Shown here: positions 1-45,698 of the stretch, in pieces
Layout: each line of letters starts with the position of its first letter
Position numbering within the stretch: position 1 is the first letter of the stretch
Assembly (NCBI GenBank): GCA_017460105.1
Contig: JAFUBS010000004.1
Location: 1 to 64,000 of the forward strand
Direction: 5' to 3'
Length of the DNA stretch: 64,000 bases
From: Candidatus Saccharimonadota bacterium
Lineage (GTDB): Bacteria; Patescibacteriota; Saccharimonadia; Saccharimonadales; Saccharimonadaceae
The notes under the pieces: generated by a model
The model's database searches: none
Told to the model about the DNA's origin: nothing
Seen by the model: only the letters and a program-made list of their open reading frames with translations
Translations under genes and position numbers: made by a program

Positions 1-675
1 CACGGTCTTTGCCGTAGTAGTACAATTGCTTGCCACCATCTTTTGCATACAGTCAGCATCGGCTATGCCATTCTTAGTACAATAGTCCACAGGCGTCGGT
101 GGCACATAATTCGCTACGGCTGCGAAATCAATCGCTAGTTTATAAGTCCCAGCCGGCTTAGAAAGGTCCGCCTTAGCAGCAAAGTTAACGATACTAGTCT
201 TACTATTAGTAGGAGCATTAGTAACGTCTAATTCATTACTAGTAGCAAATGGTAGATAGTTAGTAGCAGTAGATAATTTGTATCCCCAATGATTTACTGT
301 AAAGTCTGCTTCTGGATATCCTCCTGCTAGTGTTTCTAGTGTAGGAATAGTGTCTGCACTTCCTGCTTTAGATAGTTCAGTACTATCAGAAGACATAGTG
401 AGTGTATATCCAGTAGCATTATTAGTACCAACCGTTACTGACAAATCTGCAGAATTGAATTGTGTAGTTACTGGATTGATATTTAGTTCTACTGTATTAG
501 ATGGAATAGTTACTACTAGGCTTGGTTCTATGTTTACGTTGTAGTCTATGGTTTCGGCGAAAACGTTATCATATGTAGTAAGTGCTCCGCATAACAATAA
601 GCCAATGAATAATACGAAACCACCATATATAATATATGGTTTACAATTTACAACTTTTGTATGCAAGAATGTCAT
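1..675 (-). CDS. Surface protein, N-type 1 with FISUMP-like C-terminus (partial)
   Basis: Partial gene cut by the left edge; it starts at 675 with ATG preceded by an AAAGGAGCC ribosome site. The product has a hydrophobic signal segment (about residues 13-34) and then the roughly 170-residue beta-rich N-terminal domain shared with the other exported proteins here (motifs NHWGYKL, NYLPFATS). After FAAVANY it continues as VDYCTKNG...CMQKMVASNCTTTAKTV, which matches the start of the FISUMP-type segment of the gene at 33180, so its C-terminal half is probably FISUMP. The leader and first residues (MTFLHTK) match the gene at 31298, which carries a different C-terminal domain. Likely an exported adhesin-like protein; ligand unknown. 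Confidence 0.85.
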   Translation of the reverse strand, partial: MTFLHTKVVNCKPYIIYGGFVLFIGLLLCGALTTYDNVFAETIDYNVNIEPSLVVTIPSNTVELNINPVTTQFNSADLSVTVGTNNATGYTLTMSSDSTELSKAGSADTIPTLETLAGGYPEADFTVNHWGYKLSTATNYLPFATSNELDVTNAPTNSKTSIVNFAAKADLSKPAGTYKLAIDFAAVANYVPPTPVDYCTKNGIADADCMQKMVASNCTTTAKTV

Positions 676-692
676 CTCGGCTCCTTTTATAA

Positions 693-710
693 TAATAAAC
701 CAGAACGGTT
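693..710 (-). promoter_or_regulatory. Conserved leader motif of N-type 1 surface genes (copy 1)
   Basis: Minus-strand AACCGTTCTGGTTTATTA lies about 20 nt downstream of a TGTTATAAT extended -10 box and just before the ribosome site of the gene starting at 675. The same motif occurs at 31263-31280 and, with one change, at 34726-34743. AACC and GGTT can form a small hairpin in the 5' UTR. Confidence 0.55.
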
Positions 711-783
711 GCGTTTATTCTAAATCTATTATAACATAAAAACTAACAGCACAAGCGGTTTTAATACGAGCATATATTATATA

Positions 784-819
784 ACCAGAAGCTTGATACT
801 TTGCGAGCGTGGGGGTTGA
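784..819 (+). repeat. 36-bp promoter-proximal repeat (copy 1)
   Basis: Starts ACCAGAAGC, contains TACTTT and a GCGTGG block and ends GGGTTGA. A similar 36-bp stretch occurs at 35253-35288 before the MazF-like gene, in both cases beside a surface-protein gene. Its end overlaps the -35 box of the ORF6N gene promoter. Confidence 0.5.
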
Positions 820-845
820 TTTTTATTTTAATCCGTGCCTATAAT
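816..845 (+). promoter_or_regulatory. Promoter of the ORF6N/PLD-like gene
   Basis: -35 TTGATT (816-821), 18-bp spacer, -10 TATAAT (840-845), then a ribosome site AGGAGA before ATG 872. The G-run directly upstream of the -35 resembles that of the promoter at 16659-16688. Confidence 0.6.
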
Positions 846-871
846 ATCCCACGAACCAAAATAGGAGAAAT

Positions 872-1930
872 ATGACTAAGAGAGACGGCGCAAGAGATTT
901 GGATATAACGAACTGGGATATACGGAACAAAATTTATGACATCCGCGGGCAAAAAGTGATGCTGGATTATGATCTGGCGAGGTTTTATGGATATACGACA
1001 AAAGCATTAAACCAGCAGGTAAAACGAAACTTGGATAAATTTGAAGGTAGCGATTTCATGTTTCGACTTAACGAAGTGGAGGTTTCTAGTTTTTTGAGGT
1101 CACAAATTGTGACCTCAAAAACCGACGGTCGAGGCGGAAAACGATATTTACCATATGCCTTTACGGAGCAAGGTATTTACATGCTGATGACCATACTCAA
1201 GGGAGATTTAGCTACCAAACAAAGCCGGTCGCTAGTTATGGCGTTCAAGGCTATGAAAGATTACATCATAGACAATCAAAAGATCTTGGATTGCAGAAAT
1301 AATCTGCGGCTCGCAATGAAAGTGGCAGACAATGCTGAAAGAATCGCTGTAATGGAAGGAGAGTTCAATGATATCTCTGCGGATATAGGCGTAATGAAAG
1401 AGCGGCTCAATACTTTTATTAAAAAATCGGAAATATCCCCATTTTTGAGAGCCTTCGGGAAAGACCTAAAGAGCGGAGAATTTCTGATCTGCGAAGGAGA
1501 GTTGACTAAGGCCAGCGAGACATATATAGATATATTCTGTAGTGCTAGAAAGTCTGTAGAGATAATAGACGATTATGTCGATATTAAAACATTACGGTAT
1601 TTGCAAAAGATAAAATCGGGAGTAACCGTAACAATATATACTGAAAATATAGGGCATTATTTGCACGAAAGAGACTTGCAGGATTATAGGAAGGAGTTTC
1701 CTGGTATAGTAATCCGATTCGTTAAATCACTGCGTGAATTTCATGATAGGTTCATTATAATAGACCGAGGAGATAACGATGGAGAATTATACCATTGCGG
1801 TGCGTCGCTAAAAGATTCTGGCACGAGATTAACCGTAATAAGCATAATTAAAGATGCTGGCGTCGCCAAAGAAATCTTCGAAAGAGTAGATAAAATGGCG
1901 AGAAATCCCGAACTGCCCTTGCCGAATTAA
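872..1930 (+). CDS. ORF6N-domain protein with C-terminal PLD-like domain
   Basis: 352 residues. Residues ~15-135 match the phage-type ORF6N DNA-binding domain (IRGQKVMLDYDLARFYG, then FTEQGIYMLM). A linker follows, and from ~205 there is a second domain with FHDRFIIID and YHCGASLKDSG, the HxD-type pattern of phospholipase-D-like domains attached to ORF6N proteins. ORF6N/KilA-N proteins are usually phage or plasmid accessory genes; a nucleic-acid-directed or defence role is plausible but unproven. ATG 872 has a good AGGAGA site. It lies alone between two oppositely read surface-protein genes, which suggests an accessory insertion. Confidence 0.8.
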   Translation: MTKRDGARDLDITNWDIRNKIYDIRGQKVMLDYDLARFYGYTTKALNQQVKRNLDKFEGSDFMFRLNEVEVSSFLRSQIVTSKTDGRGGKRYLPYAFTEQGIYMLMTILKGDLATKQSRSLVMAFKAMKDYIIDNQKILDCRNNLRLAMKVADNAERIAVMEGEFNDISADIGVMKERLNTFIKKSEISPFLRAFGKDLKSGEFLICEGELTKASETYIDIFCSARKSVEIIDDYVDIKTLRYLQKIKSGVTVTIYTENIGHYLHERDLQDYRKEFPGIVIRFVKSLREFHDRFIIIDRGDNDGELYHCGASLKDSGTRLTVISIIKDAGVAKEIFERVDKMARNPELPLPN

Positions 1931-1972
1931 AGAAGGTCGAGAATACTGCTAGTATCTACGGTCGCAGTGCCG

Positions 1973-3742
1973 TTATTGTACTACCCATGGGTCGGTGGCG
2001 GTGCCGGAGCCAAGGACCGTCGTGCCTGGTGCGAGTGAAATGACGGGACGCACGCCGCCATGGGTTCCATCCACACTATAGAAGCCGAGATCGCCATACG
2101 CATACACGAGAAACTCGTGGGTAGTTCCATTATACTCACGGTAATATGGCGAGAATAACCAAAAGTCTGAACCAGAGCTTAAATATGACATCGAATCGTA
2201 AGCATTGAAATCGTTATTTTTGCCATTACCAACCAACGAAGCTTCATCGGCAGAAAGGAGGGCTACTGGGTAGGCGAGCTGACCATTACCATTACCGGTA
2301 TTATTTGTGTGAGAATAGAGGTCTACTTTACCACGCGGGCAAGTAAGGGATGGAGAGAAAGTAAGATCTTGGACATTTCTTAAGAATGAGGCGAAGTAGT
2401 AATCCGCTACTGTCTGATTACGAGTGCCATATGGAATAATAGCATCTGAGTCCGCAAAAGGGGCTTCTTCTCCCCAAGAGCTGGCATAGAGGCTTCTGTC
2501 ATTGCAATACCCGGCAGCGCCTTCTAACTTAGAAGTGTAAGCCGTCATGTTGTTTTCATACCAGTCTTCTATGTATTGTTTGATAATGGAAGAGTTGGTA
2601 TTAGTGGTAGTGTCATTGCCGGTAGAGCCGAAGATGGTAGAGACAGGTGTGGCAGCAGTAGTACCTGCAGCGAGACTACTATAAGTGTAGCCTACGGCGT
2701 GGATGTTTTGGTACTGGAGGCCGGCGTAGGTGGTGCCGGAGACGGTGGCGGAGTCTGTATTGAATGGTGATGTAGTGAGCTGAGCGGCAGTTTCAGTGTT
2801 GGCACAGGTGCCGGTACTGGTATTCCACATACCGTTATACATCATCTTTACACCACCAGTGGAAGTGGTACGAACTATTCTCCAGCAAGTGTTATTAGAG
2901 AGTTTTACATAGTTCGGATAGGCGTTAGCAGAGCCATCGGAGCCATAAGTACCAGAACCATCACTATTTAAGATGCCACGATAGAAGTAGATTTTCTGGC
3001 TGCCGCCGTTGCTGTCCTGACCATCCCATTCAAAGACACCCGAAGTGGAATTATCTGTAGTTGGATCATCGGAAGTAGGTGCAGTAATTTCCGTCCAGGA
3101 GAAGTGAGAGCTGGAATCTGTATTCTTACCTTTACTTCTGCAAGCAACTAGGCCGTAGAGTTCAGTTAAACCTTGACATTTATCTACATAATTCGCCACA
3201 GCAGTAAAGTCAATCGCTAGTTTATAAGTTCCAGCCGGCTTAGAAAGGTCTGCCTTAGCAGCAAAGTTAACGATACTGGTCTTACTATTAGTAGGAGCAT
3301 TAGTGACATCTAATTCATTACTAGTAGCAAATGGGAGATAGTTAGTAGCAGTAGATAGTTTGTATCCCCAATGGTTTACTGTAAAGTCTGCTTCTGGATA
3401 TCCTCCGGCTAGAGTTTCTAGTGTAGGAATAGTGTCTGTACTTCCTGCTTTAGATAATTCAGTACTATCAGAAGACATCGTGAGTGTATATCCAGTAGCA
3501 TTGTTAGTACCAACCGTTACTGATAAATTTGCAGAATTGAATTGTGTGGTTACTGGATTGATGTTTAGCTCTACTACATTAGAAGGAATAGTTACTACTA
3601 GGCTTGGTTCTATGTTTACGTTGTAGTCTACTGTTTCGGCATGGACATTACCAATATTAGTAGATGCAGTAGAAAGCAGAACAGCAGATAATAGGCCGGT
3701 TACAATACAGAGTGATGATCTTGAACGGTATTGGCGTCTCAT
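1973..3742 (-). CDS. Exported surface protein with C-terminal DUF6273-like domain (A)
   Basis: 589 residues from ATG 3742 (MRRQYRS). A start at 3757 is possible, but its first codons form the GGAGGTG ribosome site, and ATG 3742 overlaps the previous stop (TAATG), indicating translational coupling. Signal segment, then the shared N-terminal domain (~45-185), then a lectin/FGE-like C-terminal region with NTCWRIVRTTSTGGVKMMYNG, LTCPRGKVDLYS and, at the end, FWLFSP...VRPVISLAPGT. The segment between SP and VRP differs strongly from paralogues while its flanks are nearly identical even at DNA level. Role: probably host or surface binding. Confidence 0.85.
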   Translation of the reverse strand: MRRQYRSRSSLCIVTGLLSAVLLSTASTNIGNVHAETVDYNVNIEPSLVVTIPSNVVELNINPVTTQFNSANLSVTVGTNNATGYTLTMSSDSTELSKAGSTDTIPTLETLAGGYPEADFTVNHWGYKLSTATNYLPFATSNELDVTNAPTNSKTSIVNFAAKADLSKPAGTYKLAIDFTAVANYVDKCQGLTELYGLVACRSKGKNTDSSSHFSWTEITAPTSDDPTTDNSTSGVFEWDGQDSNGGSQKIYFYRGILNSDGSGTYGSDGSANAYPNYVKLSNNTCWRIVRTTSTGGVKMMYNGMWNTSTGTCANTETAAQLTTSPFNTDSATVSGTTYAGLQYQNIHAVGYTYSSLAAGTTAATPVSTIFGSTGNDTTTNTNSSIIKQYIEDWYENNMTAYTSKLEGAAGYCNDRSLYASSWGEEAPFADSDAIIPYGTRNQTVADYYFASFLRNVQDLTFSPSLTCPRGKVDLYSHTNNTGNGNGQLAYPVALLSADEASLVGNGKNNDFNAYDSMSYLSSGSDFWLFSPYYREYNGTTHEFLVYAYGDLGFYSVDGTHGGVRPVISLAPGTTVLGSGTATDPWVVQ

Positions 3743-5508
3743 TATTGCACCTCCCATGGTTCTGTGGCGGTGCCGGAGCCAAGAACCATCGTGCCTGGTG
3801 CGAGTGAAATGACGGGGCGAACACTATGTTCACTGCTGACTATACCAGCATTGACAAGCCTACCATACGAATATACGCCAAACCCGAGAGCACTGCCATA
3901 TAATTGGCGATGATATGGCGAAAGTAACCAGGGGTACGTACCGACAAGGTATGATTTTGTATTGTAGGCACTGAATAAGTTGTCCCAGCCATTGCCAGCC
4001 AGGGAGGCTTCATCGGCGGTGAGGAAGGCTATTGGGTAAGTAAGCTGACCATTACCATTACCGGCATTATTTGTGTAAGAATAGAGATCTACTTTACCAC
4101 GTGGGCAGGTAAGAGTGGGGGAGAAGGTGGATGAGTTAGCGTTTCTAATATATGAGCCGAAGTAATACGCCGTCATACTAGTAGTGCCATATGGGATGAT
4201 TCCGGTGTCGTCTGCAAGGGGGGTGCCACCTGAGGCACTGGAATACAGACTTCTGTCATTGCAATAGCCGGCATCACCTTCTAGTTTAGAAGTGTAGTCC
4301 GTCATGTTGTTTTCATACCAGTCTTCTATATATTGTTTGATGATGGAAGAGTTGGTATTGGTGGCAGTATCATTGCCAGTAGAGCCGAAGATGGTGGAGA
4401 TAGGAGTGGCGGATTCAGTACCTGCAGCGAGGTTGCTATAAGTGTAGCCTACGGCATGGATGTTGTGATACTCGAGGCCTTTGTAGGTGGTGCCGGCGAC
4501 GGTGGCGGAATCTGTATTAAATGGTGAGTCGGTAAGCCGGGCAGCAGTATTAGTATTCGCACAAGTACTGGTGCCGCTATTCCACATACCGTTATACATC
4601 ATCTTGACGCCACCAGTGGATGTAGTGCGAACTATGCGCCAGCAAGTGTTATTGGCGAGTTTTACATAGTTAGGATAAGCATTGGCAGAACCATTAGAAC
4701 CGTAGGATATACCGGAACCATCATTATTAAGGATACCACGGTAGAAGTAGATTTTCTGGCTACCACCGTTGCTATCTACGCCATTACCGGTAGTCATGCC
4801 ATCCCATTCAAAGACGCCAGAAGTAGAAGTATCTGCACTGGGGATTTCGGAAGTTGGCTCGGTAATTTCGGTCCAGGAGAAGTGGGATTCTGGGTCTGTA
4901 TTCTTACCTTTACTGAGTGAGGCAATGTTGTTATAGAGTAATGTTGGTAAGAGTGGATTTGCTACCGCAGCAAAGTTAATCTCTAGTTCATAAGCACCAG
5001 CAGGTTGTTCTACATTAGCCTTAGCACCAAAGGTAACTGTACTAGTCTTATTAACTGTAGGAGCATCAGTAGAGTCTAATTGGACACTTGTAGCGAATGG
5101 TAGATAGTTAGTGGTAGGGAGTTTGTATCCCCAATGGTTAACAGTAAAGGTATTTTCTGTATAGCCTCCTGATAGTGTTTCTAGTGTAGGAATGACAGCA
5201 GCGGTGCCAGTAGTCTTAGTAAGGTCTGTACCATCAGCAGACATAGTGAGGGTATAGCCTGTAGGATTATTAGTGCCTACAGTTACGCCTAAATCTTTAG
5301 AGCTAAAGGCAGAGGTGGCAGGATTAATGTCTAACACTACTGTATTAGTAGGGACTGTAACTACGAGAGAGGATTCTAGGTTTACTTTGTAGTCTACGTT
5401 CTCAGCGAATACAGTATTAGAAATAGCATTAAAGGTAGTGAGAGATATAGTACCAGACAAAATACCAACCATTATATATAATGATGTTCTAGTTTTTATC
5501 TTGGACAT
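3742..5508 (-). CDS. Exported surface protein, N-type 2 with DUF6273-like domain (B)
   Basis: 588 residues, first gene of the minus-strand array, with its own TTGACG/TATACT promoter. The N-terminus (MSKIKTRTSLYIMVGILSG) is almost identical to the gene at 33180, but the C-terminal half is of the W..SP...VRPVISL type shared with the genes at 1973 and 31298, whereas 33180 has a FISUMP end. This is a clear module swap. It has a signal peptide to ~35 and no membrane anchor or sorting signal at the C-terminus. The tail LGSGTATEPWEVQ is shared with its paralogues. Likely adhesin-like; ligand unknown. Confidence 0.85.
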   Translation of the reverse strand: MSKIKTRTSLYIMVGILSGTISLTTFNAISNTVFAENVDYKVNLESSLVVTVPTNTVVLDINPATSAFSSKDLGVTVGTNNPTGYTLTMSADGTDLTKTTGTAAVIPTLETLSGGYTENTFTVNHWGYKLPTTNYLPFATSVQLDSTDAPTVNKTSTVTFGAKANVEQPAGAYELEINFAAVANPLLPTLLYNNIASLSKGKNTDPESHFSWTEITEPTSEIPSADTSTSGVFEWDGMTTGNGVDSNGGSQKIYFYRGILNNDGSGISYGSNGSANAYPNYVKLANNTCWRIVRTTSTGGVKMMYNGMWNSGTSTCANTNTAARLTDSPFNTDSATVAGTTYKGLEYHNIHAVGYTYSNLAAGTESATPISTIFGSTGNDTATNTNSSIIKQYIEDWYENNMTDYTSKLEGDAGYCNDRSLYSSASGGTPLADDTGIIPYGTTSMTAYYFGSYIRNANSSTFSPTLTCPRGKVDLYSYTNNAGNGNGQLTYPIAFLTADEASLAGNGWDNLFSAYNTKSYLVGTYPWLLSPYHRQLYGSALGFGVYSYGRLVNAGIVSSEHSVRPVISLAPGTMVLGSGTATEPWEVQ

Positions 5509-20641: not shown

Positions 20642-21488
20642 TTCTCATTGCCATCTGCATGATCGGGAGTTCTTTACGGAAGAGCAAGCAGAGGCAATGC
20701 TGGAGCGAGCACGTGGTAACGGCATAGAAAAGATAATTTGTATCGGCACCAACCACGAAGATTCGCTCGCGGCACGCGATTTTGCTTCGCTTCATGATGG
20801 TGTCTATTGGACTTACGGCATACACCCCGAGAACAGTAAGGAGATTGATTATAACTTTTTCTCATCGAGACTTGAATTTTTGAGCACGTCATACGCTGGT
20901 GCGCCGACAGAACCGTCCCTTCGGGACGAACCTGTCGGGCACGGCAGGAATATACGTGTCAAAAATTCAAATCATGGCATGATTCGAAAAAGTTATAATC
21001 AATCTCCTATCGCTATCGGTGAGGTAGGGCTAGACTATCATTATGAGGGGTATAATCGTGAGACACAAATACGTTTATTCGAAGAGATGTTGCAACTGGC
21101 AGTAGACAATGATTTACCGCTGTCGTTTCATGTGCGCGAAGCATTTGACGATTTCTTTCCGGTGGTCGCTAATTTTCCTGGCGTACGTGGCGTAGTGCAT
21201 AGTTTTTCGGATAATAAGAAGAATTTGAAACGCATTTTGAACGAAACAGAGTTTTATGTTGGCGTAAATGGCATGGCGACATATTCCACTTTGCCGACGC
21301 CACCTCTAGAAAGGATTTTGCTCGAAACTGACGCTCCTTTCTTGACACCAGTACCATTTCGTGGTATAATTAATGAATGTGCTTATATTCGCAATATAGC
21401 CGAATGGCTAGCCGCGAAGCTCAGCATTCCATTTGATGTAATAGAGGAGGCAACGACTCAAAATGCAAAACAATTATTCAAATTCTAG
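20631..21488 (+). CDS. tatD: TatD-family metal-dependent hydrolase/DNase with in-frame palindromic insertion
   Basis: 285 residues. TatD enzymes are TIM-barrel 3'-5' exonucleases of DNA repair. Metal motifs: DSHCHLH at the N-terminus, IGEVGLDYHY, PLSFHVREA, GVVHSFS and LLETDAPFL. Between YGIHPENSKEID and SPIAIGEVGL there are about 50 extra residues, including SLRDEPVGHGRNIRV, encoded by a 162-bp palindromic element (20843-21004) also found twice in mnmA. Without it the enzyme would be about 235 residues. The insertion falls in a surface loop before a conserved strand, so activity may survive. Overlaps typA. Confidence 0.92.
   Translation: MLIDSHCHLHDREFFTEEQAEAMLERARGNGIEKIICIGTNHEDSLAARDFASLHDGVYWTYGIHPENSKEIDYNFFSSRLEFLSTSYAGAPTEPSLRDEPVGHGRNIRVKNSNHGMIRKSYNQSPIAIGEVGLDYHYEGYNRETQIRLFEEMLQLAVDNDLPLSFHVREAFDDFFPVVANFPGVRGVVHSFSDNKKNLKRILNETEFYVGVNGMATYSTLPTPPLERILLETDAPFLTPVPFRGIINECAYIRNIAEWLAAKLSIPFDVIEEATTQNAKQLFKF
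20843..21004 (+). repeat. Palindromic coding element, family 1 (copy in tatD)
   Basis: The outer arms GATTGATTATAACTTTTTC (20843-20861) and its exact complement (20986-21004) enclose inner arms around CTTGAATTTTTGA/TCAAAAATTCAAA and a GC-rich core with the CGTCCCTTCGGGACG hairpin. The core is shared with 27850-28018 and 28511-28666. The whole element is read in frame through tatD. Confidence 0.93.
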
Positions 21489-25777: not shown

Positions 25778-25869
25778 TGCCGACTGACGAAATGATAATT
25801 TAAGTGTGGACTAGCTTTTAAGGATTATCTATATGCTATGCCTGAGTTACTTGTGCAAGTTTACGTAAT

Positions 25870-26463
25870 TTGCGCTATTTTACATTATGTGTTATAATTA
25901 GCGATAAATGGTGCTACGCTGAATGTTCTGATTATAAAATCGAGGACGACATGTCTCTAGATCTCGCGAAAAAAATTCTTAATGTTTTAGTTGAGATCGG
26001 AATTAAGCATGTTATTCTCATTGGTGGCGACAACGAGACGATCTTAAAGATTTTTCCCATACTAAATGAGCTCTATGAAGGGCGCGTTGTCTTGGAACCC
26101 AGGTTACCGCTTTGTGTTTTCCCGAAGGATTTCCTTAAAAAATTGATTTCCGAAGGACAAATACAAAACATGTGCCATGTGCAAAATCGTTCGGGTATTG
26201 TCTTCGACAATGATGGATATATTTTGCCCTGTAATAGTATGGTTGAGGTAAAAATGGGTAAAATCGGCAAAGACTTTTCAAATGGCAAAGAATTGCTTGC
26301 CCTCTTGAATAGCGATGACATTCGTAGCGGGTATGTGGAAATGCTGAAATACCCGTCAGAAGAATGTACTTTCTGTAATCTGAATGATTATTGTCGTGGT
26401 GGCTGTATCGTAAACTGGACCGTTCTAGATCCTGAAATATGCCACCGAATCGTTGAAGAATGA
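25870..26463 (+). CDS. Degenerate radical-SAM/SPASM maturase-like protein
   Basis: 197 residues, about half the usual 370-450 for radical-SAM/SPASM proteins. The N-terminal part resembles the first half of a SAM barrel (MSLDLAKKILNVLVEIGIKHVILIGG), but the Cys-x3-Cys-x2-Cys cluster reads C-YAE-C-SD-Y, lacking the third Cys, and the GGE loop reads GGD. The middle of the barrel is missing. The C-terminal SPASM-like part is well kept: IVFDNDGYILPCNSM then CTFCNLNDYCRGGC. The start is uncertain (TTG 25870, or ATG 25951), because a TGTTATAAT box lies within the first codons. Next to a Cys-rich peptide gene, so once a RiPP maturase; it may now be a cluster-binding accessory or a pseudogene. Confidence 0.65.
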   Translation: MRYFTLCVIISDKWCYAECSDYKIEDDMSLDLAKKILNVLVEIGIKHVILIGGDNETILKIFPILNELYEGRVVLEPRLPLCVFPKDFLKKLISEGQIQNMCHVQNRSGIVFDNDGYILPCNSMVEVKMGKIGKDFSNGKELLALLNSDDIRSGYVEMLKYPSEECTFCNLNDYCRGGCIVNWTVLDPEICHRIVEE

Positions 26464-26478
26464 AAGGAGGTGAAACAA

Positions 26479-26637
26479 ATGGCAAAGTTTTTATCCATGC
26501 TCCGTAAAACTGGATCAACAAAAGTTAAGAACATGAAGAACGCGCGCAAGCACGTTGCTGGCATGGACTGTTCAGCCTGTTCTGCTTGTGACTGCGCATG
26601 CTTCTGCGATTGCCAGGGCGGCGGAGTAGGTGGCTAA
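26479..26637 (+). CDS. Cys-rich 52-residue peptide, candidate RiPP precursor
   Basis: ATG 26479 with a strong AAAGGAGGTG site, 52 codons. A basic leader-like half (MAKFLSMLRKTGSTKVKNMK) is followed by a core with seven cysteines in fifteen residues, CSACSACDCACFCDC, and a Gly-rich tail QGGGVGG. It lies 15 bp after the SPASM-type gene and is followed by a terminator and an HExxH protein gene, the usual layout of radical-SAM modified peptides (ranthipeptide/SCIFF-like). Alternatives: a metallothionein-like or Fe-S-binding peptide. Function not demonstrated. Confidence 0.75.
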   Translation: MAKFLSMLRKTGSTKVKNMKNARKHVAGMDCSACSACDCACFCDCQGGGVGG

Positions 26638-26661
26638 TTACGCCACTTTTTCATCTTATTT

Positions 26662-26694
26662 GCCTTCCGATTGACAAGTCGGGAGGCATTTTTT
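26662..26694 (+). terminator. Terminator whose loop holds the next promoter's -35 box
   Basis: GCCTTCCGA (26662-26670) pairs with TCGGGAGGC (26679-26687, one G-T pair) and is followed by six T. The loop includes TTGACA. Confidence 0.8.
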
Positions 26695-26699
26695 ATAAT
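26671..26699 (+). promoter_or_regulatory. Consensus promoter of the HExxH gene
   Basis: TTGACA (26671-26676), 17-bp spacer, TATAAT (26694-26699), a perfect sigma-70 consensus, overlapping the terminator of the peptide operon; ATG 26706 is 6 bp after the -10. Confidence 0.8.
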
Positions 26700-26705
26700 T
26701 AGAAC

Positions 26706-27401
26706 ATGGAAATCAGGCAGTTTCAAGTAATATATAGCCCAGAAAAAGATGCAAAAAACTGGTTTGAGGCGACCAGAAGTACTGCTTTCTATGGCAAGTC
26801 GTGGTCGGACGGGCTATTTGGCTATTATCTTAAATTATTCAACCAGATTTCTAAGTTGTCAGACGAGAAAGCTCTTAAAGAAGCCAAAGACATAGTCGTA
26901 TCACTTTATGACGATAGAGCCAGAGCCAAAAAGCAACAAATAGAGAAAAAACTCAAGTCAAATTTTCAAGATGCGTGTGCATGGATTGAGAAAACAACTG
27001 GCAAACATTTCTCAGAAGAAAAAACAACTATATTTTTAACAACTTTTCCACGAGCTCCATATTCGCCTGAAGAAAATCTATTTTATTTTTGTGTACATTG
27101 GGATGATATTATTGGTGTATTTTTGCACGAGGCAATTCATATGCAAATATATCGTTACTGGAGAACAAACAGTAAAAGTCGTGTTTCGGAGCTGTCTGAG
27201 GATAATTTTATTATTTTAAGTGAATCAATGACATTTTTAGTTAATGAAGCACCCAAAAATCTAGTGATAAAAAAAGACAGTGGTTATCCAGAACACTCTG
27301 AACTCAGAAAGGAGCTTAGTAGAGTTCGTAAGGAAAAGAAACTAAACTTTGGCGAGTTGTTGGAATTTGGAGCAAAAAAATTGCTACTTCTACAAAACTA
27401 A
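26706..27401 (+). CDS. Putative zinc peptidase (HExxH protein)
   Basis: 231 residues, no signal peptide or membrane helix. Contains FLHEAIHMQIYRYW (~140-153), an HExxH zinc motif, with a possible third ligand Glu in ILSESMTFLVNEA about 30 residues later (gluzincin-like spacing). Predicted cytoplasmic metalloprotease. It follows the candidate RiPP precursor and could remove its leader, but it has its own perfect promoter. The zincin assignment rests on the motif alone; no named family recognised. Confidence 0.7.
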   Translation: MEIRQFQVIYSPEKDAKNWFEATRSTAFYGKSWSDGLFGYYLKLFNQISKLSDEKALKEAKDIVVSLYDDRARAKKQQIEKKLKSNFQDACAWIEKTTGKHFSEEKTTIFLTTFPRAPYSPEENLFYFCVHWDDIIGVFLHEAIHMQIYRYWRTNSKSRVSELSEDNFIILSESMTFLVNEAPKNLVIKKDSGYPEHSELRKELSRVRKEKKLNFGELLEFGAKKLLLLQN

Positions 27402-27423
27402 TATTATATGTTATAATATTGTA

Positions 27424-28833
27424 ATGAAGACGACCGATAAGATATTTTTTTTGTCGCATTCTGGTAGAGGCCGGAAGGTTTTTGTGGGAATGAGTGGCGG
27501 AGTAGACTCGAGCGTATCAGCTCTACTTCTAAAGGAGCAGGGATATAACGTAGTTGGCGTCTATATGAAAAACTGGTCACGCGATTTGCCTGGCATGAAA
27601 TGTCCATGGACAGAAGACCTGGCCGATGCAAAACGGGTCGCTGTGAAACTCGGAATTGATTTTGAAGTTTGGGATTTTGAAAAGGAATACCACGACAAAG
27701 TTGTAGAGTATATGCTCGAAGAATTTCGTCGTGGCAACACGCCAAATCCAGACGTAATGTGCAATCAGGAAATAAAATTCAAGTTGTTCTATGAAAAGGC
27801 AATGAAAAGAGGCGCTGATTATATCGCTACCGGGCATTACGCGAGAGTAGGGGCTGAAACCGATTTTTCTTCAGATGGACTTGAATTTTCAAGCACGTCA
27901 TACACTGGGACGCCGGCAGAACCGTCCCTTCGGGACGAACCTGTCGGGTCCGTCAGGAATATACGTGTTGAAAATCCAAATCAAACTCTCATTCTTCAGA
28001 AAAATCGGTTTCAGTCCCACCTTCTCATGCGTGCTGTAGATGAAAATAAAGATCAGACGTACTTTCTCTATCGCATTTCCGAAGAGGCGCTTGAGCACAC
28101 ACTATTCCCAATTGGTGGAATGTTAAAGCCGGAAGTGAAGAAACTTGCTGAAGAAAAAGGGCTTCATAATGCATACAAGAAGGAGTCGATGGGGGTCTGT
28201 TTTGTGGGGGAAGTGGGGATGAAAGATTTTCTCAAGGAGTATATCGATATTAAACCTGGCGAAATTCGCGAAATTGAATCCGAAAAAATATTAGGATACC
28301 ACGAAGGTGCAGTATTCTACACAATTGGACAACGTCACGGATTGTATTTAGACGGAGTGAAAGGCGAAGTAAATGACGGGCTGCCGTACTACGTAGTCGC
28401 AAAGGGTATTCCGAACAACATTGTATACGTTTCTAAAAATCTAAACGACGAGCATATTTGGACGGATGAGTTAGAGCTAAAAGACGTAGTCATACGAGGG
28501 TCCACTAGCCGCGAAAATTACTTTTCTGGACTGACTAGTCAGCCCTCGACGTCATACACTGGGACGCGGGCAGAACCGTCCCTGCGGGACGAACCTGTCC
28601 GGTCCGTCAGGAATATACGTCTCGGTCTGCCTAATCTGAAACAGTCGCAGAAAAGTAATTTTTCGCGCCCAGTCAATATCTCGGTACGATTACGCCATAG
28701 AGCGCCACTGATTCCGGCCAAATTTGATGGTACGAAATTATATTTTGAGAACAAAATAAAACGTCCGGCTTCTGGACAGTCGGCAGTTTTGTACGATGGG
28801 GAAATCTGCCTAGGCGGTGGAATTATCGCCTAG
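27424..28833 (+). CDS. mnmA: tRNA-specific 2-thiouridylase MnmA with two palindromic insertions
   Basis: 469 residues from ATG 27424, 6 bp after TATAAT; a start at 27349 lies inside the preceding gene. MnmA thiolates U34 of Lys, Glu and Gln tRNAs. PP-loop GMSGGVDSS, NPDVMCNQEIKF, YIATGHYARV, VDENKDQTYFLYR, ESMGVCFVGE and GQRHGLYLDG are all present, with both active-site cysteines. The excess over the usual ~365 residues is accounted for by two in-frame insertions of about 50 residues, each carrying AEPSLRDEPV and VRNIR, at 27850-28018 (after YARVG) and 28511-28666 (C-terminal domain). Confidence 0.95.
   Translation: MKTTDKIFFLSHSGRGRKVFVGMSGGVDSSVSALLLKEQGYNVVGVYMKNWSRDLPGMKCPWTEDLADAKRVAVKLGIDFEVWDFEKEYHDKVVEYMLEEFRRGNTPNPDVMCNQEIKFKLFYEKAMKRGADYIATGHYARVGAETDFSSDGLEFSSTSYTGTPAEPSLRDEPVGSVRNIRVENPNQTLILQKNRFQSHLLMRAVDENKDQTYFLYRISEEALEHTLFPIGGMLKPEVKKLAEEKGLHNAYKKESMGVCFVGEVGMKDFLKEYIDIKPGEIREIESEKILGYHEGAVFYTIGQRHGLYLDGVKGEVNDGLPYYVVAKGIPNNIVYVSKNLNDEHIWTDELELKDVVIRGSTSRENYFSGLTSQPSTSYTGTRAEPSLRDEPVRSVRNIRLGLPNLKQSQKSNFSRPVNISVRLRHRAPLIPAKFDGTKLYFENKIKRPASGQSAVLYDGEICLGGGIIA
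27850..28018 (+). repeat. Palindromic coding element, family 1 (copy 1 in mnmA)
   Basis: Outer arms CTGAAACCGATTTTTCT (27854-27870) and its exact complement (27998-28014), extended by GGGG/TCCC with one G-T pair; inner arms TTGAATTTTCAAGCACGT and ACGTGTTGAAAATCCAAA; the core is the same as in the tatD copy. Outer arms unrelated to those of the other copies. Confidence 0.93.
28511..28666 (+). repeat. Palindromic coding element, family 1 (copy 2 in mnmA)
   Basis: Outer arms GCGAAAATTACTTTTCTG (28511-28528) and its complement with one inserted base (28648-28666). The core has a compensatory C-G to G-C change relative to the other copies (GGGCAG...CTGTCCG) and a CGTCCCTGCGGGACG tip. Confidence 0.92.
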
Positions 28834-29149: not shown

Positions 29150-31174
29150 ATGGACGCAAACGAAATTAGAAAAAAATTCTTAGATTTTCAGGTAAGTAAG
29201 GGGCACAAGGTAATTCAGCCAGCGCCGCTGGTACTCGAGAATGACCCGACTACACTGTTTACTGGCTCTGGTATGCAGCCACTGCTACCATATCTGCTCG
29301 GCAAAGAGCATCCGATGGGCACGCGCCTCACAGATTCTCAGCCTTCTATGCGTTTGCAAGATATCGAAGACGTGGGCGACCCTAGGCACACGACAGTTTT
29401 TGAGATGCTCGGTAACTGGTCACTAGGCGATTATTTTAAAAAGGAACAGATTTCTAATTTCTTTGAATTTTTGACATCGGTAGTAGGACTAGATCCGAAC
29501 AAAATTTATGTAACTTGTTTTATCGGTAACGAGAAGTATGGCATTCCACGCGACACTGAAGCGGCGGAGATTTGGCAAGAAGTGTTTGCGAAAGCCGGGA
29601 TTGAGGCAAAGATTGCCGAAATCGGTTCAGCCGCCGAGGGTGATAAGCGTGGCATAAAGCCTGGGGAGAGAATTTTCTTTTATGATGACCGTGAGAACTG
29701 GTGGAGTCGTGGCGGTGGATGTGACACCACGCCGATTGGCGATCCATGCGGTCCTGATTCGGAAGTTTTCTACGATTTCGGAGAAGACAAACAAGACATA
29801 GAAAAGTACGGCCTGGCACATCCAGCATCAGATGGTGCTAGGTTTATGGAAATTGGCAATCAGGTATTTATGCAATACCGTCGTCTGCCAGATGGCACGT
29901 TTGAAGAATTAGAAAAGAAAAATGTAGACTTCGGTGGCGGGCTGGAGCGCATCGCGGCGGCGGCGATTGGCTCTTTTGATGTGTTCAAGATTTCATTAAT
30001 GAAGCCAATTATTGATAAATTGGAAGAGATTTCTGGGAAGTCTTATGATACGAATACTGATGAGATGCGCGTAATTGCCGACCATATCCGTGGAGCGTAT
30101 CTGTTGGCCGCGCAAGGATTAGCACCATCCAATAAGACCCAAGGGTACGCAATGCGCAGACTAGTACGCCGCGCAATCATGCGAGCACTTGATCTCGGAA
30201 TCGCATCCGATTTCTTGGCGGAAATAGTGCCAATCGTGGCGGCTAATTATGTTGATTTGCCGGATTCGATTTTGACACACCGCGAAGTAGCACTGGAAGT
30301 GCTATTGAAGGAAGAAAAAGCATTTAGGCAGACTTTGAATAAGGGACTCAAGGAACTACATAGAATGGCGAATCATGCAAATTCTGCTTGCGGTTCGTCG
30401 CGCGCCGGGCAAATTTCTCAAAGCCCCGCCGGGCCTGCGCCCGGTACTGTCCGGTACTCGGCTCGGGGGGCTTCTCGAAATTCGCTCGGGCTTACTCAAT
30501 GCAAGCAGAATTTGCACGATACGCCAGTTCTCAGCGGTCGCGATTTATTCAAGTTGCAGGATACTTATGGCTTCCCAATGGAATTGTCAGTAGAAGAGTG
30601 CTACCGCGAGGAAATCAAACTGACTGAGAATTATCGTGCTGAATTTGACGAGGCGTTGAAGGAGCAGCGCGAGCGCTCACAGACCGCTTCTAAAGGGATG
30701 TTTAAGGGCGGACTAGAAGACCATGGTGAACAAACGGTGAAGTACCATACCGCTACGCATCTATTGTTGGCGGCTTTGCAGAAATTAGTTTCGCCAGACA
30801 TTTGCCAAAAAGGCTCCAATATCACTGCGGACCGCGTAAGATTTGATTTTAATCTCGACCACAAGATGACGCCGGAAGAAATCAATGCGGTGGAATCGCA
30901 AGTAAATGAGTGGATTCAGGCGGATCTTCCCGTAGTGTTTGACGAATACGACAAGGCCTATGCGAGAGATGTCTTGAAAGCACATGGACAGTTCTGGGAT
31001 AAGTATCCAGAGAAGTTAAAAGTCTACACGATCGGCGATTTCGACAACCCAATCTCGCGTGAAGTTTGTGGTGGTCCACACGTAGAACATACTGGTGTAA
31101 TCGGACACTTCAAAATCAAGAAAGAAGAATCGTCTTCGGCCGGAGTGCGAAGAATTAAGGCTGTGGTAGAGTAG
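29150..31174 (+). CDS. alaS: Alanyl-tRNA synthetase without C-Ala domain, with palindromic insertion
   Basis: 674 residues against about 875 in Escherichia coli. Charges tRNA-Ala. Class II motifs are intact (FTGSGMQPLLPYLLG, SQPSMRLQDIEDVGDPRHTTVFEMLGNWS, GGGLERIAA), as is the editing/SAD site HTATHLLLAAL with CGGPHVEHTG. The protein stops after the SAD domain, so the C-Ala oligomerisation/tRNA-elbow domain is missing. An insertion (SRAGQISQSPAGPAPG...) between LHRMAN and PVLSGRDLFKLQDTYGFP corresponds to the family-2 element at 30376-30516. Start 7 bp after TGATATAAT. Confidence 0.95.
   Translation: MDANEIRKKFLDFQVSKGHKVIQPAPLVLENDPTTLFTGSGMQPLLPYLLGKEHPMGTRLTDSQPSMRLQDIEDVGDPRHTTVFEMLGNWSLGDYFKKEQISNFFEFLTSVVGLDPNKIYVTCFIGNEKYGIPRDTEAAEIWQEVFAKAGIEAKIAEIGSAAEGDKRGIKPGERIFFYDDRENWWSRGGGCDTTPIGDPCGPDSEVFYDFGEDKQDIEKYGLAHPASDGARFMEIGNQVFMQYRRLPDGTFEELEKKNVDFGGGLERIAAAAIGSFDVFKISLMKPIIDKLEEISGKSYDTNTDEMRVIADHIRGAYLLAAQGLAPSNKTQGYAMRRLVRRAIMRALDLGIASDFLAEIVPIVAANYVDLPDSILTHREVALEVLLKEEKAFRQTLNKGLKELHRMANHANSACGSSRAGQISQSPAGPAPGTVRYSARGASRNSLGLTQCKQNLHDTPVLSGRDLFKLQDTYGFPMELSVEECYREEIKLTENYRAEFDEALKEQRERSQTASKGMFKGGLEDHGEQTVKYHTATHLLLAALQKLVSPDICQKGSNITADRVRFDFNLDHKMTPEEINAVESQVNEWIQADLPVVFDEYDKAYARDVLKAHGQFWDKYPEKLKVYTIGDFDNPISREVCGGPHVEHTGVIGHFKIKKEESSSAGVRRIKAVVE
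30376..30516 (+). repeat. Palindromic coding element, family 2 (copy in alaS)
   Basis: Outer arms TGCAAATTCTGCTTGC (30376-30391) and exact complement (30501-30516). The GC-rich core contains CCGGGCCTGCGCCCGG and CTGTCCGGTACTCGGCTCGG, shared with obgE in the same orientation and trmD in the opposite one. 141 bp = 47 codons, read in frame. Confidence 0.92.
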
Positions 31175-31297: not shown

Positions 31298-33076
31298 ATG
31301 ACATTCTTGCATACAAAAGTCAGGAATTATAAACAATATATTATATGTAGTGGTTTTGTGGTTTTTATTAGTTTGTTGTTATGCGGAGCATTTAGCGCAT
31401 GCGGTGATGTTTTCGCCGAAAATCTAGACTACAACGTTTCCATCCAGCCTAGCCTTTCCGTTATCATTCCGTCCAACACAGTAGAGCTAAACATCAATCC
31501 AGTAACCACACAATTCAATTCTGCAGATTTGTCAGTAACAGTTGGTACTAATAATGCTACTGGATATACACTCACGATGTCTTCTGATAGTACTGAACTA
31601 TCTAAAGCAGGAAGTACAGACACTATTCCTACACTAGAAACCCTAGCAGGAGGATATCCAGAAGCAGACTTTGCAGTAAACCATTGGGGATACAAACTAT
31701 CTACTGCTACTAACTATCTACCATTTGCTACTAGTAATGAACTAGACGTAACTGATTCTCCTACTAATAGTAAGACTAGCATTGTTAACTTTGCTGCTAA
31801 GGCAGACCTTTCTAAGCCCGCTGGGACTTATAAACTGGCGATAGATTTCGCAGCGGTGGCGAATTATGTCCCACCTACTCCATTCTCACTTTATAATAGT
31901 GTCGCCGCCCTCAGCAAAGGCAAGAATACAGACTCTAGCTCACACTTCTCTTGGACTAGTGTCACTACTCCCACTTCTACCGCCGCTGATTCTACCGAAG
32001 ACACTTCTACTTCCGGCGTCTTTGAATGGGATGGTCAGGATAGCAATAATGGTAGCCAGAAAATCTATTTCTACCGCGGCATCCTAGAAACCAGCGCAGG
32101 CACTGGTACCTATGGCTCTGACGGCTCTGCCAATGCCTATCCTAACTATATAATGCTCGCTAACAACACTTGCTGGCGTATCGTTCGCACTACTTCCACT
32201 GGCGGCGTAAAGATAATCTATAACGGTACCTGGAAGAATAATACTTGCGCCAACACTCAGGCTGCCGCTCAGCTCACCGGGTCACCATTTAATACAGACT
32301 CCGCCACCGTCTCCGACGCCACCTATAACGGCCTTGAGCATCACAACATCCATGCCGTAGGCTACACTTATAGTAGTCTCGCTGCAGGTACCACTGATAC
32401 TACCGCTATCTCCACCATCTTCGGCTCTACCGGCAATGACACTACTACTAATACCAACTCCTCCATCATCAAGCAGTATCTAGAAAGCTGGTACCATGCT
32501 AATATGACTGACTACACTTCTAAGCTGGAAGGTAATGCCGGCTATTGTAATGATAGAAGCCTGTACACCAGTCCCTCAGGTGACACCCCACTTGCAGATA
32601 GCACCAAAATTATCCCATACGGCACTACTGACAACATGACAGTGTATTATTTCGGTCCACATCTAAGAAATGCCAACCAATCCACCTTCTCCCCCACCCT
32701 CACCTGCCCACGTGGCAAAGTAGATCTCTATTCCTACACTGGCAACACTGGTAATGGCCAGCTCACCTACCCAGTAGCCCTCCTTACTGCTGATGAAGTC
32801 TCCTTAGCTGGTAATGGTTATGGTTATGATAACGATAATTCCTACAATGCTTACAACGCCAAATCGTACCTTAACTCCGGTTCGGTCTTCTGGTTGCTCT
32901 CGCCGGACTCCCGCGATTCGTACGGCTATGCGCGCGGGTTCGTCGTGGTCTCGAGTGGCTACCTCCTCTACCTCAGCGTCAACAGCATCTTTGGCGTGCG
33001 CCCCGTCATTTCACTCTCTTCTGGCACCCAGGTCCTCGGCTCCGGCACCGCCACAGACCCATGGGTCGTGCAATAG
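31298..33076 (+). CDS. Exported surface protein, N-type 1 with DUF6273-like domain (C)
   Basis: 592 residues. The start MTFLHTKV, leader and N-terminal domain match the partial gene at 1-675, but the second half matches the W..SP...VRPVISL class (genes at 1973 and 3742). Signal segment ~15-42. Near the C-terminus, between LSP and GVRPVISL, about 30 residues differ at most positions from the paralogues, and here nearly every codon ends in C or G (TAC CTC CTC TAC CTC AGC), unlike the AT-richer codons just before. That pattern fits a variable region of a diversity-generating retroelement, although none is seen in the window. Probable adhesin. Confidence 0.86.
   Translation: MTFLHTKVRNYKQYIICSGFVVFISLLLCGAFSACGDVFAENLDYNVSIQPSLSVIIPSNTVELNINPVTTQFNSADLSVTVGTNNATGYTLTMSSDSTELSKAGSTDTIPTLETLAGGYPEADFAVNHWGYKLSTATNYLPFATSNELDVTDSPTNSKTSIVNFAAKADLSKPAGTYKLAIDFAAVANYVPPTPFSLYNSVAALSKGKNTDSSSHFSWTSVTTPTSTAADSTEDTSTSGVFEWDGQDSNNGSQKIYFYRGILETSAGTGTYGSDGSANAYPNYIMLANNTCWRIVRTTSTGGVKIIYNGTWKNNTCANTQAAAQLTGSPFNTDSATVSDATYNGLEHHNIHAVGYTYSSLAAGTTDTTAISTIFGSTGNDTTTNTNSSIIKQYLESWYHANMTDYTSKLEGNAGYCNDRSLYTSPSGDTPLADSTKIIPYGTTDNMTVYYFGPHLRNANQSTFSPTLTCPRGKVDLYSYTGNTGNGQLTYPVALLTADEVSLAGNGYGYDNDNSYNAYNAKSYLNSGSVFWLLSPDSRDSYGYARGFVVVSSGYLLYLSVNSIFGVRPVISLSSGTQVLGSGTATDPWVVQ
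32902..33012 (+). other. Candidate variable region in the C-terminal lectin-like domain
   Basis: Encodes the stretch from after LSP to VRPV. Runs of NNC codons, with invariant positions R, G, F-V, G, L and V spaced as in the paralogues and variable residues between. No matching template repeat or reverse transcriptase is visible in the window. Confidence 0.45.
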
Positions 33077-33120
33077 CTAATAACTACACTAAAACTAGCT
33101 ATCTCACAGAAATCACCTGC

Positions 33121-33149
33121 TTGACGAAACCATTAGCAGAATATATACT
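33121..33149 (+). promoter_or_regulatory. Promoter of surface gene D
   Basis: -35 TTGACG (33121-33126), 17-bp spacer, -10 TATACT (33144-33149), identical hexamers and spacing to the promoter at 5541-5569, then an AGAGAGG ribosome site before ATG 33180. Confidence 0.75.
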
Positions 33150-33179
33150 TATTATAGATAAAAGTATAAGAGAGGTCAT

Positions 33180-34625
33180 ATGTCCAAGATAAAAACAAGA
33201 ACATCATTATATATAATGGTTGGTATTTTGTCTGGTGCTATATCTCTTACTACTCTTAATGCTATTTCTAATACTGTATTCGCAAAGAACGTAGACTACA
33301 AAGTAAACCTGGAATCCTCTCTCGTAGTTACAGTCCCTACTAATACCGTAGTATTAGACATTAATCCAGCCACAAGTGCTTTTAGCTCTAAAGACCTAGG
33401 CGTAACTGTAGGTACTAATAACCCTACAGGCTATACCCTCACTATGTCTGCTGATAGTACAGATCTAACTAAGACTACTGGTACTGCTGCAGTTATTCCT
33501 ACACTAGAAGAATTATCAGGAGGTTATACAGAAAGTAACTTCACTGTAAACCATTGGGGATACAAACTTCCTGCTACTAACTATCTCCCATTTGCTACAA
33601 GTGTCCAATTAGACTCTACTGATGCTCCTACAGTTAGTAAGACTAGTACAGTCACCTTTGGTGCTAAGGCCAATGTAGAACAACCTGCTGGTGCTTATGA
33701 ACTAGAGATTAACTTTGCTGCGGTGGCAAACTATTCTCCGCCTATCAATTATTGCTCAAATACTTCATATGATTGCATGCAAGAAATCGTAGCTTCTGAC
33801 TGTACTACTGTTGCAAAGCGAGTGATAGACAGAAGAGATGGTAACATGTATAGTATACAACGTCTAGCTGACGGTAATTGCTGGATGCTCGATAATCTGA
33901 GCCTCGATTTGGTCGAGACGGATATTGCCATTTTGCGTGGCAATACTAATGCCTCCGATTTGGCATTGAGTTACCTCAAAGGCGAATCAAAACGCGACAT
34001 CGAAGCAGAGCCTAACGGGAACTACGCCACAACTGGTGTTGCCTACTGGACGACTAAAAGCAACAATCTCAATTCATCCCCGCTTATTTCGACGAGCGGT
34101 AATTGCTATTCTGTTGACGCTTGCGCCAATTATCCGTCCGAAAAAGCTTGGAATAAAAATTCGATTATTACTTCTTATGGTATCGGCTCTGGCGCAATAG
34201 GTGTCTACTATAACTTTTGCGCAGCAAGTGCCGGTTCTTATTGCTATTGTGATGGTGACAATGAATGCATTTCGAAGGGTGATGCCAGCGAAGATATTTG
34301 CCCATCTGGCTGGAGAATGCCCACTGGCGGAGCAAACACTGTTGCAATCGACGGCAAGGGCGAGCTTTCGGCTTTACTTGCAGCCTACAACGGTAATCAG
34401 ACAGCAATAGATCCGGGGAGTTTCCAATATAATCTCTCTACCCCATTTTCTGGATTTATTGCCTTAGGCACGGCTTGTGCTCAGGGCAATCATGACTCAC
34501 TTTGGTCATCAACGAGATATACAAACACGAATATGTACTACGCTAGAGTCCATTCTGTTAGCGCGTTTATTCAGGTTAATGATGGTCGCTACTATGGTAA
34601 CTCCGTAAGATGTCTGCTTCGGTAG
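33180..34625 (+). CDS. Exported surface protein, N-type 2 with FISUMP domain (D)
   Basis: 481 residues. The N-terminal ~185 residues are almost identical to the gene at 3742-5508. The C-terminal half is a FISUMP-type (Fibrobacter paralogous) domain: DRRDGNMYSIQRLADGNCWMLDNL, CPSGWRMPTGGA and the closing LWSSTRYTNTNMYYARV...NSVRCLLR, where residues between WSST and SVRC are typically variable in this family. Signal peptide to ~35, cysteine pairs in the C-terminal half, no sorting signal. Likely secreted or surface-bound ligand-binding protein. A break point for module exchange lies at FAAVANY. Confidence 0.86.
   Translation: MSKIKTRTSLYIMVGILSGAISLTTLNAISNTVFAKNVDYKVNLESSLVVTVPTNTVVLDINPATSAFSSKDLGVTVGTNNPTGYTLTMSADSTDLTKTTGTAAVIPTLEELSGGYTESNFTVNHWGYKLPATNYLPFATSVQLDSTDAPTVSKTSTVTFGAKANVEQPAGAYELEINFAAVANYSPPINYCSNTSYDCMQEIVASDCTTVAKRVIDRRDGNMYSIQRLADGNCWMLDNLSLDLVETDIAILRGNTNASDLALSYLKGESKRDIEAEPNGNYATTGVAYWTTKSNNLNSSPLISTSGNCYSVDACANYPSEKAWNKNSIITSYGIGSGAIGVYYNFCAASAGSYCYCDGDNECISKGDASEDICPSGWRMPTGGANTVAIDGKGELSALLAAYNGNQTAIDPGSFQYNLSTPFSGFIALGTACAQGNHDSLWSSTRYTNTNMYYARVHSVSAFIQVNDGRYYGNSVRCLLR

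Positions 34626-43076: not shown

Positions 43077-45698
<2,622 letters not shown>

Follow-up and report, generated by a model that had tools for sequence, protein, structure and literature searches.

The window, the whole stretch of 64,000 nucleotides analysed here, is part of a 649-kb draft genome that is 88.5% complete. Between nifS and mnmA, it holds three ORFs in the following order: a SPASM ORF of 197 codons (25870-26463), a gene for a Cys-rich peptide of 52 aa (26479-26637), and a gene for an HExxH protein of 231 aa (26706-27401), as placed by the preliminary description of this DNA. The features below were assigned with the help of related loci, mainly that of a sister genome (L056) and two further loci (L054 and L055).

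25780 to 27480 (approximate bounds), forward strand: whole cassette, the exchanged block between nifS and mnmA, from identity to L056 and nifS-mnmA adjacency in cassette-free congeners
25890 to 25898, forward strand: extended -10 promoter TGTTATAAT of the radical-SAM-precursor unit, still present; identical in L056, function predicted from the sequence
25905 to 25906, forward strand: junction of deletion 1, from pairwise DNA alignment to L056
25906 to 26463, forward strand: remnant of the radical-SAM/SPASM maturase gene, likely translatable from ATG 25951 (170 aa)
26028 to 26034, forward strand: junction of deletion 2, from alignment to L056
26173 to 26451, forward strand: SPASM region with 7/7 auxiliary-cluster cysteines kept, from the TIGR04085 match and alignment to L054, L055, and L056
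26463 to 26470, forward strand: strong ribosome-binding site AAAGGAGG of the precursor gene, from the sequence; same arrangement in L054, L056, and G740
26479 to 26637, forward strand: gene of the Cys-rich RiPP precursor, 52 aa, with core CSACSACDCACFCDC; protein identical in L056, homologues in L054 and G084
26661 to 26688, forward strand: intrinsic terminator 3' of the precursor gene (12-bp stem and T tract)
26671 to 26699, forward strand: consensus promoter TTGACA-17-TATAAT ahead of the HExxH gene (12/12 matches)
26706 to 27401, forward strand: HExxH zincin-like protein, 231 aa, proposed leader peptidase, from its neighbours in other loci and an M1-like model

The ORF of 197 aa uses a TTG start at 25870, which lies upstream of the extended -10 box. 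Hence, the realistic remnant begins at ATG 25951, which is preceded by GAGG, if it is translated at all. At 26661-26699, the precursor terminator overlaps the perfect promoter of the HExxH gene.

Among 151 genomes searched from the same family, G140 carries a full-length enzyme, with genes for a small Cys peptide and for an HExxH protein behind it. Complete cassettes are present in G292 (goat ileum, L054) and G462 (sheep jejunum, L056), and L055 is intact as well. As the same three genes occur in the same order in L054, L055, and L056, a chance origin of the cassette can be dismissed. The enzymes of these loci have the SAM-cluster motif CNFRCKWC or CNFRCPWC. The window locus has a short precursor with a leader-like N-terminus and a variable core next to the maturase gene; across the relatives, the core differs widely, with 3-8 cysteines, but the enzyme is always there. 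Judged by its genes, the cassette is a genuine RiPP-type one, consisting of a radical-SAM/SPASM maturase, a Cys-rich precursor, and an HExxH zincin-like protein. The preliminary description had proposed a RiPP locus with a degenerate radical-SAM/SPASM protein, and both the intact relatives and the alignment to L056 bear this out. The full-length radical-SAM versions that it had suggested looking for exist in L054, L055, and L056. No transporter was seen beside these three cassettes or that of the window.

The L056 enzyme is intact (352 aa) with CNFRCKWC and the full SPASM set. Compared with it, the window gene has two deletions. Deletion 1 comprises 120 bp (L056 4959-5078) between the -10 box and codon 27. 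With it, the first 26 residues, C22 and C26 among them, are lost together with the start codon and the ribosome-binding site. Hence, two of the three cysteines of the CX3CX2C SAM-cluster motif are gone, not one as had been supposed. Deletion 2 comprises 430 bp (L056 5201-5630, approximately residues 67-210), i.e., most of the SAM barrel, in place of which the window has CGACAAC; the net change of -423 bp is in frame. The CGACAAC piece could be filler or an island between two smaller deletions. An enzyme that lacks the SAM-cluster cysteines and the barrel cannot carry out radical-SAM chemistry. As two of these cysteines and most of the barrel are missing, the window enzyme should be unable to cleave SAM. 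In the alignment to L056, the SPASM half, the precursor gene, and the HExxH gene of the window are intact. The remnant matches the SPASM domain model TIGR04085 with 35.9 bits (cut-off 27) in the profile search, and the enzymes of L054, L055, and L107 also score above this cut-off.

With their CX3CX2C motif, SPASM cysteines, and a short Cys-containing precursor alongside, the intact cassettes resemble the systems of SuiB (streptide), CteB/SCIFF, PapB, and StsB (sactipeptides/ranthipeptides). A model of the intact enzyme (pLDDT 67) is closest to SuiB, ChlB, anSME, and CteB (Z 18.4 for SuiB, 17.1 for ChlB, and 16.4 for CteB). Unlike CteB, PapB, StsB, and SuiB, the window copy lacks the catalytic core. 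The cassette enzyme has only approximately 20 residues before the cluster motif, which leaves no room for an N-terminal RRE domain. None of the named maturase equivalogs of NCBIfam was matched above its cut-off, and the general SPASM domain alone passes. For the PapB model NF047865 (cut-off 340), the window scored 31.3 bits and L056 66.5 bits; for the SCIFF model TIGR03974 (cut-off 425), the scores were 22.3 and 40.7 bits, respectively. FibroRumin RiPPs (TIGR04135) share the Cys-rich core adjoining a radical-SAM enzyme, but the sole match to this model was the precursor of L110 with 13.9 bits against a cut-off of 45. The nearest published context that we found is that of the graspetide loci of CPR bacteria (Branch 2), many of which have a SPASM enzyme and zincin peptidases (PMC8939145). 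Patescibacteria, a SPASM enzyme, and a zincin are common to both; the precursors described here, in contrast, are Cys-rich. Among the ORFs beside the Saccharibacteria cassettes of the window and L054-L056, read by eye rather than by a profile scan of every gene, we recognised no ATP-grasp gene. The distant locus L108 has an MvdD-like ATP-grasp by a weak Pfam match.

The HExxH protein carries the motif HEAIH at residues 141-145, as expected for M1 peptidases, but residue 18 after the motif, where M1 enzymes have their zinc-ligand Glu, is Ser. An invariant Glu is found 27 residues after the motif (E173). No Pfam family matched above its cut-off, and Foldseek gave no significant match with the model (pLDDT 80). 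The model suggests a small gluzincin similar to the catalytic core of M1 enzymes, with Z values of at best 8.9 to M1 chains (VIA). AplP is an M1 enzyme that removes the leader of lanthipeptides (PMC10885120). With AplP and EryP, both M1 RiPP leader peptidases, the window protein shares the HExxH zincin character and the M1-like modelled fold (EryP Z 6.9); it has, however, 231 aa instead of approximately 850 and no Glu at the M1 x18 spacing. HExxH genes adjoin the radical-SAM gene and/or the precursor gene in 8 of 9 other loci (not in L107), although their sequences differ, and the ten loci together have 11 HExxH ORFs among 127 ORFs. The HExxH family of the window is also present without a cassette in several genomes and therefore has a role outside the cassette, too.

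L056 has the same surrounding genes and the same insertion site as the window. Their identity is approximately 97% in the cassette vs. approximately 80-85% in the flanks, and the high identity extends from about the end of nifS to just inside mnmA. Accordingly, dS between the two is 0.13-0.17 in the cassette (0.085 for the short N-terminal piece) but 0.84 for nifS, 1.38 for DUF1846, 1.44 for mnmA, and 1.94 for alaS. In at least 12 congeners without the cassette, nifS and mnmA directly abut. The low dS of the cassette, the high dS of its flanks, and this adjacency lead us to conclude from the sequences compared that the cassette block has recently been exchanged between species at the nifS-mnmA site. 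The cassettes of L054 and L055 are located at other sites. The preliminary description had counted the cysteine desulfurase and mnmA as parts of the locus. We reject the idea that nifS and mnmA supply sulfur to the cassette because they adjoin each other in the congeners and are much more diverged than the cassette itself; they are tRNA-thiolation neighbours outside the peptide system.

The synonymous and nonsynonymous changes between the window and L056 number 13 and 2 in the SPASM remnant, 4 and 0 in the precursor gene, and 18 and 10 in the HExxH gene, respectively. With L054 as the outgroup, at least 6 synonymous and at most 1-2 nonsynonymous changes in the remnant fall on the window branch. 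Approximately 28 nonsynonymous changes are expected if the remnant had been neutral over this whole branch. The observation of at most 2 limits the neutral phase to approximately 22%, i.e., roughly a fifth, of the window branch. So few nonsynonymous changes suggest that the break is young or that the remnant is still constrained, and a young break would be the simpler explanation.

The gene was detected in 5/394 genomes of the family, and two of these five copies are broken, namely that of the window and that of G084. The G084 locus, situated at the end of a contig, lacks parts of the enzyme as well as the start and leader of the precursor. Within the genus, 3/174 genomes have the gene; the remaining matches of this search were weak. 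A search of 380 genomes across the phylum gave strong relatives in G602, G783, G759, G729, and G740, each with a small peptide of 3 to 8 cysteines beside the enzyme. G675 and G814, whose contigs end inside the gene, and G710 and G636, with weak matches, were not counted as intact. Full-length enzymes are encoded in L107-L111, and the enzymes of intact relatives have 340-352 aa. Cys-rich peptides and HExxH proteins occur at the phylum-level relatives L108-L111 and L113. In L109, the precursor and HExxH genes are located upstream of the enzyme gene instead of downstream. An ABC transporter gene is found near the L107 cassette on the opposite strand. As side observations, L108 is near other RiPP-type genes (the MvdD-like ATP-grasp and a second SPASM enzyme), and L109 is near a C39-like peptidase; these are weak or unscanned matches. 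In all, there are approximately 10 intact or partial relatives across the phylum. Outside the window's family, 393 sampled genomes of the class gave no strong match, and no relative was found in viral contigs. The peptide family is sparse and horizontally exchanged in Patescibacteria and is unnamed by the family models searched. We found no description of this cassette family in the literature, our search covering few of the subscription papers.

Taken as a whole, a three-gene RiPP cassette, which is sparse in Patescibacteria and horizontally exchanged, has very probably been broken recently at the window locus. In intact relatives, the radical-SAM/SPASM enzyme with its SAM cluster and auxiliary Fe-S clusters would modify the Cys-rich core. 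The modification would most likely consist of sulfur-to-carbon thioether cross-links from the core cysteines to carbon positions, as we guess from the make-up of the core and from the closest enzymes that have been characterised. The HExxH zincin would then cut off the leader, as the M1 enzyme AplP does for lanthipeptides. In the window, at least two deletions took most of the SAM barrel as well as the start and two cysteines of the cluster motif, which would leave the enzyme dead. As the -10 box, the precursor ribosome-binding site, the terminator, and the HExxH promoter are all intact, the precursor is probably still expressed and would be left unmodified. The preliminary description had offered either a decaying pathway or a minimal maturation system; the intact enzyme in the sister genome at the same locus strongly favours decay over the minimal system. 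As a caveat, the frame kept across deletion 2 and the nearly all synonymous changes are what a remnant in use would show.

An assembly artefact is improbable. In this reading, the maturase gene is whole in the organism, and parts of it dropped out of the contig when strains were mixed or the assembly graph collapsed. Such an artefact would fit a draft assembly in which the deletions are seen in the contig only, with two separate losses in one gene, a preserved frame, and an intact sister copy. However, the junctions are clean, one of them with a 7-bp piece unlike its flanks, and the sequence around the deletions is otherwise continuous. The lost pieces are absent from other contigs: neither a 60-base probe from the deletion 1 piece nor the deletion 2 piece was found elsewhere in the window genome's assembly in searches run without a positive control. 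No other candidate maturase was found in this assembly, where the sole match to PF04055 (Pfam radical-SAM) is NrdG beside NrdD. The 11% of the genome that is missing could encode a full-length maturase.

Less probable still is that the Cys-rich peptide itself is the product, binding metal or clusters like a metallothionein and needing no modification. The dense CxC and CxxC pattern and its retention in the window without an active enzyme would agree with such a role, but relatives have an adjoining maturase, and the core varies while the enzyme stays. Moreover, G084 lost the leader and start of the precursor along with the enzyme. The preliminary description had considered a metallothionein or ferredoxin fragment, or conserved homologues of the peptide without a radical-SAM neighbour, as contrary findings. 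Profile searches gave no family match of the window precursor to known precursor families, metallothionein, or ferredoxin. In searches seeded with the enzyme and the HExxH protein, no precursor homologue without an adjoining radical-SAM gene or remnant was found.

A functional role of the remnant as a SPASM-only protein, still binding the precursor or carrying Fe-S clusters in a minimal system with the zincin, is highly unlikely. The remnant's 7/7 SPASM cysteines, preserved frame, ATG behind GAGG, and the few nonsynonymous changes on the window branch would suit this role; however, all full-length relatives examined have a complete enzyme, deletions younger than approximately 22% of the branch give the same substitution pattern, and the barrel, which packs against SPASM, is mostly missing from the fragment. 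Just as doubtful is a new Fe-S or metal-related function derived from the RiPP pathway, made up of a SPASM-only partner, the zincin, and the unmodified Cys-rich peptide.

Few specialised metabolites are expected from ultrasmall episymbiotic bacteria. The compact radical-SAM-precursor-zincin cassette, with its phylum-wide scatter and movement between species, is a candidate source of peptides against hosts or competitors. The window and L056, which share their precursor but differ in whether the maturase is intact, make up a natural maturase knock-out.

The window also contains repeats. One of approximately 119 nt lies in frame inside coding genes at 20856-20974 (TatD-like) and twice in mnmA (27865-27983 and 28519-28637). 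It contains the palindromic GTCCCTNCGGGAC, and a fourth core match is on contig C7. The nifS gene of L056 has an insert related to this repeat, which the window nifS lacks. We take it to resemble the in-frame palindromic elements of Rickettsia. Several long repeated genes similar to those of surface proteins, with segments of 79-96% identity, are found at 1-5200 and 31298-33700. A second repeat of 135 nt occurs at 30379-30513 and 45194-45328, with one copy inside alaS. At the corresponding position, the alaS gene of L056 is approximately 48 codons shorter, which suggests that the 135-nt repeat may be another in-frame insertion element.
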